From a virus: 47,112 nucleotides of DNA. The position numbers were made by a program, and so were the translations under genes. The notes below the pieces were generated by a model. It had not been told where the DNA came from. It saw nothing but the letters and a program-made list of their open reading frames with translations, and made no database searches. The DNA lies in the IMG/VR virus record IMGVR_UViG_3300048919_000058, positions 1 to 47,112 of that record; one strand, 5' to 3'. Each line of letters begins with the position of its first letter. The stretch's first letter is position 1. Of this stretch, positions 9,543-10,216 are shown piece by piece.

Positions 9543-9785
9543 TTACCTCGCTGTAACCTGTTTGCTCTCACGATGGCCAGCTGCGAAAAGCGCCACCTCT
9601 GGCAAGCAGACTGCACCATATTCAACTTCCTTCTGACGCGTTCCGGCAAGCGAAATGGCTTTGGTTACGCGCTCACTACAGCCTTCAGACAGCCGTGAAA
9701 ATGCACGGTCAATCTTTTTACAGTAGGCTTTCATCTCTTTGTGCTGACGAGCACGTTCGAGTTTACGAATCTCTCTGGCTTTCAT
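9543..9785 (-). CDS. N: Antitermination protein N, P22 gp24-like
   Basis: 80 aa. The arginine/lysine-rich N-terminus (MKAREIRKLERARQHKEMKA) is the boxB-binding peptide expected of N proteins. The C-terminal half (RVTKAISLAGTRQKEVEYG) is nearly the same as P22 gp24 as I remember it, the part that engages NusA/RNA polymerase. It should bind nutL and nutR hairpins and let polymerase pass tL and tR sites. GGAGGTATCCA precedes the ATG. Its leader carries the tRNA-like element. Confidence 0.85.
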   Translation of the reverse strand: MKAREIRKLERARQHKEMKAYCKKIDRAFSRLSEGCSERVTKAISLAGTRQKEVEYGAVCLPEVALFAAGHRESKQVTAR

Positions 9786-9848: not shown

Positions 9849-10001
9849 CTAAAAATTCCAGCAGATAGCTTCAGCTTCTTTTGCGATGTTGCGAGCATCT
9901 GGCTTACCACTCACTTTCTTGGTAAACCATTTGCTACCGTCACAAAGGTAAACAACAACAAATTTCTTAGTGTTGCTTGAGTGGTAGTAAGCTTTTTTCA
10001 T
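9849..10001 (-). CDS. Small basic protein in the N leader
   Basis: 50 aa (MKKAYYHSSNTKKFVVVYLC), lysine-rich, ending ICWNF. GGAGGGATATTT precedes the ATG, a strong site. It is the first gene after pL, between the tRNA-like element and N. Not recognised; by position it resembles small early genes found upstream of N in some P22-like phages. Confidence 0.65.
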   Translation of the reverse strand: MKKAYYHSSNTKKFVVVYLCDGSKWFTKKVSGKPDARNIAKEAEAICWNF

Positions 10002-10024
10002 AAATATCCCTCCAGTGGTTGCTT

Positions 10025-10158
10025 TGGTGATGTGGTGGCTGGAGTCGAACCAGCTTCCATCGGTGCGATGCCGATTGCAGTGCGCGCAGCGTTCCGCTAC
10101 ATGACTAGTATTTTCACAGTCGCCTATCTGCTAGCTCGCCGTTGAGCTTCACCACATC
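10025..10158 (-). ncRNA. tRNA-like structured RNA in the pL leader
   Basis: On the minus strand a 9-bp acceptor-like stem (GATGTGGTG at 10158-10150 with CACCACATC at 10037-10029) is followed by ACCA. Directly inside it is a canonical T arm, GCTGG-TTCGACT-CCAGC (10054-10038), and on the 5' side a D-like arm, AGCTC-AACGGC-GAGCT (10148-10133). The 78 nt between contain a 5-bp/7-nt anticodon-like hairpin (10075-10059, stem ATCGG/CCGAT), a GTAGCG-GAA-CGCTGC hairpin and a weaker one. This is too long for a normal tRNA, and the loop lacks the usual U33. It lies downstream of nutL. A decayed or intron-bearing tRNA is possible. Confidence 0.6.
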
Positions 10159-10178
10159 CCAAAGCAACTTCCTTTGGC

Positions 10179-10216
10179 GGGGACGAATCATCCCCATGTC
10201 ATCTTGTTAAAGAGCT
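10179..10216 (-). promoter_or_regulatory. nutL (boxA and boxB)
   Basis: boxA AGCTCTTTAACA (10216-10205) is close to the bacterial boxA consensus. Nine bases on, the boxB hairpin GGGGAT-GATTC-GTCCCC (10195-10179) has a 5-nt loop. The same hairpin form recurs at nutR (11404-11420). It lies ~45 bases after pL and should load N on the left transcript. Confidence 0.8.

Follow-up and report, generated by a model that had tools for sequence, protein, structure and literature searches.

Background

It is well established that in phage lambda RNase III controls N by way of a stem in the leader of the N message. According to a review (PMC5725501), N together with Nus factors at nutL represses N translation, an effect that RNase III modulates. 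Two further groups of described RNAs are close to the element reported here. GOLLD and ROOL are phage and prophage RNAs, often found near tRNAs, which form homo-oligomers through kissing loops backed by covariation (PMC12286853). Viral tRNA-like structures and tRNA-elbow mimics carry the D-loop/T-loop elbow on non-decoding RNA (PMC4810234, PMC5723415).

A tRNA-like RNA in a pL leader

The window analysed is the whole stretch of 47,112 nucleotides of the viral record IMGVR_UViG_3300048919_000058. It contains, on its minus strand, a tRNA-like RNA with a core of about 130 nt (10029-10158). The RNA and its surroundings are composed as follows.

10205-10215, minus strand: boxA-like GCTCTTTAACA (GCUCUUUAACA) of nutL, by sequence inspection
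10179-10196, minus strand: boxB-like hairpin after boxA, from the fold of 10010-10200
10159-10168, minus strand: 5' arm of the outer helix, GTTGCTTTGG (GUUGCUUUGG), homologous to an arm of the lambda N-leader RNase III stem; the outer helix occurs in pL-type copies only
10150-10158, minus strand: 5' strand of the acceptor-like 9-bp stem, GATGTGGTG, partner 10029-10037; double changes in 6 of 9 pairs and 97% of cells paired (n=41 homologues)
10133-10148, minus strand: D arm AGCTC-AACGGC-GAGCT with the GG of the tRNA D loop; near-invariant in all homologues, tRNA-like by inspection
10077-10131, minus strand: extra arm at tRNA position 26 (GCAG ... CTGC, inner stem, loop of 17-18 nt)
10104-10109, minus strand: hexamer ACUAGU, self-complementary, in the apical loop of the extra arm; candidate site of kissing-loop dimerisation
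10059-10075, minus strand: anticodon-like hairpin AUCGG-CAUCGCA-CCGAU (5 bp, 7 nt); its stem covaries
10038-10054, minus strand: T arm GCUGG-UUCGACU-CCAGC, gapless junction to the acceptor-like stem; double changes in 4 of 5 pairs, loop near-invariant
10029-10037, minus strand: 3' strand of the acceptor-like 9-bp stem, CACCACATC, partner 10150-10158
10025-10028, minus strand: ACCA directly 3' of the acceptor-like stem
10018-10027, minus strand: 3' arm of the outer helix, CCAAAGCAAC, next to which A10028 bulges out
9849-10001, minus strand: 50-aa ORF directly downstream, phrog_20574 (function not assigned)
9543-9785, minus strand: N antiterminator homologue, 80 aa (PF25694 N_peptide, E=7e-18; phrog_271)

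The tRNA-like features of the sequence-only reading were confirmed at their minus-strand coordinates: a 9-bp end stem followed by ACCA, a T arm joined to it without a gap, a D-arm-like hairpin on the 5' side and 78 nt with additional hairpins in between. These 78 nt (10055-10132) resolve into the extra arm and the 5-bp/7-nt hairpin. The extra arm measures about 55 nt and is placed between D stem and anticodon-like arm, which corresponds to tRNA position 26, and the variable loop has 4 nt, as in tRNA. Elements of the elbow are GG in the D loop and UUCGA in the T loop. The minimum free energy of the core is -54.7 kcal/mol (z = -4.1), equalled by none of 200 shuffles; folding with flanks included gives z = -5.1.

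The element lies downstream of the boxA-like sequence and hairpin and upstream of the N homologue. Alignment with lambda revealed that the flanks of the copies in pL leaders are the arms of the lambda N-leader RNase III stem (GGCTTTGGGGTGTGTG / CACACACCACCAAAGC), and one relative (L013) is close to lambda from boxB through the N start, except for the tRNA-like apex. The earlier proposal that the RNA sits where lambda has an RNase III-processed leader is borne out, and the stem arms are even homologous. The likeness comprises the position from nutL to N, the arms (GGCTTTGG-GGTGTG / CACACC-A-CCAAAGC) and the bulged A, so that a long nutL-to-N stem with homologous arms, as in the lambda type of N leader, is present. 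The apex of the lambda stem, on the contrary, has no tRNA-like core; tried as a relative, it scored 4.8 bits with the covariance model of the RNA and is unrelated.

All 38 pL-type copies keep an outer helix of leader and trailer, about 8-13 bp long. In 33 of them it was analysed as 10 pairs, 93.9% of which are paired, with double changes at 5 of the 10. It lengthens the acceptor by about 10 bp in pL leaders, resulting in a composite helix of about 20 bp, and a Shine-Dalgarno sequence follows just past it in many copies. As to the ACCA on which the end stem was said to close directly, the letters are there, but they are not a free tRNA end: they represent the bulged A and the first bases of the covarying outer helix, and "CCA" is thus paired. 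Nor does N come next: the first ORF 3' of the element is the 50-aa ORF.

The N homologue has an N-terminal arginine-rich part unlike that of P22; its C-terminal part is of P22 type. N proteins downstream of the element vary widely among phages and the RNA stays the same. Separately, a complete tRNA-Thr (CGT) gene is located at the window start (42-117), probably the attachment-site tRNA of a P22-type prophage.

Comparison with tRNAs and known RNA families

Searches of the window for tRNA, tmRNA and intron-bearing tRNA returned nothing credible for the element. ARAGORN at default settings detected no tRNA gene at its position, and no tmRNA even at a relaxed threshold; Rfam at the gathering threshold gave no match to it. 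Two sub-threshold candidates were rejected, namely the tRNA model RF00005 (18.1 bits, gathering cut-off 29) and a partial match to RAGATH-28 (RF03052; 17.5 bits, cut-off 45.3). RAGATH-28 was also absent at the gathering threshold near 20 copies, and the Rfam models of GOLLD and ROOL matched neither the window nor 20 related loci. In the covariance search that had been proposed as a check, new copies score 131-156 bits with our model R1, and real tRNAs reach about 41.

The element resembles tRNA (RF00005) in its D arm, T arm, 5/7 anticodon-like arm and 4-nt variable loop. It differs in the extra arm at position 26, an acceptor of 9 instead of 7 bp, the absence of U33 and the Rfam score below cut-off. 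The earlier suggestion of a decayed tRNA is not supported: unrelated phages show strong conservation of the extra arm and of the anticodon-like loop, as well as of the D arm and T loop. Nor is that of an intron-bearing tRNA: the insert at position 26 is itself a conserved structured arm outside the anticodon loop, which excludes a classical tRNA intron, and position 33 is nearly always A.

T4 species 1 RNA (rnaC, 139 nt) is of similar size, belongs to a phage tRNA cluster and is situated near tRNA-Arg. Its 3' part folds as a T arm on a stem of 8-9 bp, like the element; it has, however, no matching extra arm or anticodon-like hairpin. The T4 RNA (L185:1405-1507) is itself tRNA-like, with a long hairpin in the place of the variable arm. 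Considered as a homologue, it reached 16.0 bits, equal to ordinary T4 tRNAs (14-16 bits), which is no evidence of homology. GOLLD and ROOL, unlike the element, exceed 600 nt and are not tRNA-like, and viral tRNA-like structures and elbow mimics belong to the genomes of RNA viruses or to eukaryotic RNAs. By analogy, the element probably works most like T4 species 1, GOLLD and ROOL; it is not a member of them.

Rfam 15 has no model for the family. No description of this architecture in dsDNA phages was found in the open PMC literature, and an earlier one in a subscription journal is possible; in the part of the Pas/STnc100 sRNA paper available to us (PMC13192938), neighbours such as STnc100 are described and the tRNA-like RNA is not. 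As far as the searched literature and Rfam go, the element is a member of a previously undescribed family of phage tRNA-like RNAs.

Homologues and host range

Using blastn (E <= 0.01), the element was detected in 92 phage records, and blastn also found it in 170 of 5,426 complete E. coli genomes. Three Klebsiella/Enterobacter plasmid records carry it, and further loci come from Klebsiella, Enterobacter, Superficieibacter and a Pantoea phage (PdC23, one copy). Exact pattern scans of IMG/VR retrieved 107 and 86 stretches. These database and IMG/VR counts are records, not independent events; the database records are redundant and include many clones of phage seszw. The 66 distinct cores referred to below were obtained after filtering, with later genome and plasmid loci added.

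In genome samples of one per species, the family to which the Klebsiella match belongs had the element in 4 of 392 genomes. Order and class scans yielded no copy in the sampled genomes beyond that family, save on one contig binned as Cellvibrionaceae. This contig (L149) bears a copy of HK75 type with flanks of E. coli type and is probably a misbinned E. coli prophage. A broader pattern applied to 84,980 genomes gave 3 true copies, other matches being weak and at tRNA level. Judging from the genomes and records covered, the element belongs to phages and prophages of Enterobacteriaceae and their close kin.

More than 50 deposited seszw records (MZ375xxx; L010) of 36-46 kb, at least one of them titled as a mutant clone, all retain the element. 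This retention among structural genes is weak evidence that the element is hard to lose. Two misannotations were observed: in vB_CECAV_048 a 58-nt "tRNA-Ser" is placed on a fragment of a copy (L001:3080-3137), and in vB_EcoP-611R6 a "polyubiquitin-A" CDS overlaps the element (L009:2908-3033).

Covariation of stems

Homologues were aligned by MAFFT, as a result of which pairing of the inner extra-arm stem appears lower than it is. For the six-helix structure in 41 distinct homologues, 94.2% of cells pair, compared with 83.6% in shuffles and 29-48% in slid controls, and the covariation score is 0.312 versus 0.134 in shuffles. Double-sided changes occur in 21 of 36 pairs, a number matched by none of 500 shuffles; the compensation that the sequence-only reading expected of homologues is therefore found.

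Compensatory changes are present in each variable stem. The anticodon-like stem appears as ATCGG/CCGAT, ATAGG/CCTAT, ATTGG/CCAAT and ACAGG/CCTGT, the closing stem of the extra arm as GCAG/CTGC, GGG/CCC, GTGT/ACAC, GAG/CTC and GCGA/TCGC, and the inner stem of the latter has double changes in 8 of 9 pairs. The anticodon-like loop contains CGCA in all copies, with NCG as the triplet where an anticodon would be; nearly all aligned copies have A at position 33 (L124 has U). On the strand of the element, G-U outnumbers A-C (91 versus 46 cells). Together with covarying variable stems and tRNA-like T and D loops, this use of G-U pairs indicates that selection acts on RNA.

A palindromic loop

One of six hexamers is found in the loop that caps the extra arm: ACTAGT, TCTAGA, TCGCGA, GCTAGC, ACCGGT or TCTGGA. 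All six are self-complementary (TCTGGA with G-U), a rule that holds in 66 of 66 distinct cores and that no second hexamer position in the alignment follows. Counted as pairs, 100% of the hexamer cells pair (71% in shuffles) and covariation amounts to 0.672, compared with 0.146 in shuffles. When letters were shuffled among the six hexamers, all six were self-complementary in 0.1% of trials, a probability that is only a guide, as the hexamers may stem from few independent changes. The rest of the core offers no alternative intramolecular partner across lineages. No hairpin can pair such a hexamer with itself, which makes kissing between two molecules the natural interpretation. A loop that varies among lineages and is always self-complementary is what covariation would preserve in a kissing-loop homodimer, and the sequences suggest that the RNA forms such dimers.

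Other genomic contexts

One core is common to three arrangements: pL leaders, late regions and lytic Salmonella phages. The window core is identical in 127 of 130 positions (98%) to a copy in a different virus (L116), the flanks being unrelated. By ORF inspection, terminase and portal genes flank the L116 copy, which lies on the other strand, antisense to head genes. In HK75 and E. coli prophages, the late-region copies have Q/tR' on one side and holin on the other, and phage-plasmids of Klebsiella and Enterobacter carry copies too. In lytic Salmonella phages the copy lies beyond the major tail gene and on the other strand, and in several of these phages tRNA genes come after it. One such copy heads a tRNA pair, and in phage Akira the copy adjoins tRNA-Met.

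Copies outside pL leaders have a different 5' hairpin with a covarying stem of 7-10 bp (TAAGAGCA/TGCTCTTA, AGAGAGTA/TACTCTCT, ATCGCTTTG/CAAAGCGAT, AATGGCACTG/CAGTGCCATT). One late subgroup has a terminator-like hairpin and T run directly 3' of the element, and many copies do not encode CCA. Nearly the same RNA is found ahead of holin, within the tRNA clusters of lytic phages and between genes for the head, so that a function confined to the N leader cannot account for everything. L116 and the other contexts imply that the RNA works, or is at least maintained, without an N leader; judged by these positions, the element is not peculiar to N leaders.

Two side observations concern the non-pL copies. 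CACAAC(A)GG or a variant precedes the 5' hairpin in six loci (L002, L001, L004, L019, L155, L017); the motif complements GTTGTG, the 5' strand of the acceptor, and an alternative fold hiding that strand is possible. In one prophage type an STnc100-family sRNA (L045:1160-1362, 49.6 bits) directly follows the tRNA-like RNA and a terminator-like hairpin, that is, one late leader contains two structured RNAs.

Possible function and alternative explanations

The simplest account of the distribution over these contexts is a modular, stable RNA acting in trans. We consider it on balance probable that the element is such a portable processed RNA, moving between phages as a module, and that pL copies are freed by RNase III. 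The RNA would be transcribed early from pL, and RNase III would cut the composite helix as in lambda. That same cut would both free the tRNA-like RNA and separate nutL from the N-carrying message. The freed RNA would fold into a tRNA-like elbow and pair with a second copy via the palindromic loop. In each context the module would borrow a locally available processing signal, which in pL leaders is the RNase III stem. Three points count against this account: the flanking helices differ greatly, which may mean different cis roles in each context; the hexamers, being self-complementary, might in principle have their effect as DNA; and many copies lack an encoded CCA.

The main rival is a leader element acting in cis only, as a rigid cap or RNase P/RNase III substrate which sets processing and translation of N mRNA and elsewhere processes or protects the downstream late message. 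It agrees with the outer helix being kept and covarying in all 38 pL-type copies, with the Shine-Dalgarno sequence just after it in many and with the control of N by RNase III through the same arms in lambda. Yet the core is conserved far beyond the needs of a spacer, is 98% identical even where it runs antisense to head genes and accompanies tRNA genes in lytic phages, and lambda manages without it; we take the cis-only role seriously while thinking it unlikely. In another alternative the module works at the DNA level and is transcribed by chance, serving as a recombination linker or as a palindromic site for a protein. Cores swapped between contexts and hexamers that are DNA palindromes fit this idea, but the excess of G-U over A-C, covarying stems and tRNA-like T and D loops make it very improbable. 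Least probable of all, and hardly credible, is a true or former tRNA (Arg-like NCG triplet) with an odd insertion, still decoding or decaying. NCG does stand at the anticodon position of every copy and among the real tRNAs of Enterobacterales genomes tRNA-Arg(ACG) scores best, which speaks for origin only; A33, the 9-bp acceptor, the RF00005 score and the negative ARAGORN result at default oppose it, and a structure under conservation is not decaying.

As for what the trans-acting RNA would bind, the most likely target, which is also the part of the scheme closest to a guess, is a tRNA-handling or tRNA-cleaving factor of the host or of a defence system, for which the RNA would serve as decoy or competitor. 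The tRNA elbow is recognised by many tRNA-handling factors (PMC4810234), and tRNA-cleaving defences are countered by phage tRNAs (PMC13096335). Such a target was chosen for these reasons and because the element adjoins tRNA genes; the decoy idea is a guess from shape. The window RNA may be a mimic binding tRNA-handling proteins, as proposed earlier, or an RNA processed by RNase P or RNase III. We put forward as tentative, and rather doubtful as a whole, the specific picture of a self-dimerising tRNA mimic of temperate and lytic enterobacterial phages, a decoy or inhibitor in trans of a tRNA-handling or tRNA-cleaving host factor (e.g. a defence nuclease), built in lambdoid pL leaders into an RNase III stem from which one cut would release both the RNA and the N message.

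Phage tRNA clusters hold stable RNAs without an assigned role, such as T4 species 1 and 2, GOLLD and ROOL. The present family was missed by the tRNA finder used, lacks an Rfam 15 model and has a fragment called tRNA-Ser in one GenBank record. It also shows that the top of the N-leader stem, well studied in lambda, is an exchangeable slot, filled by an RNA module in some phages. The family is small, tRNA-like and present in the K-12 phage HK75 and E. coli prophages, and the palindromic-loop dimer is a clear architectural prediction that can be tested quickly.
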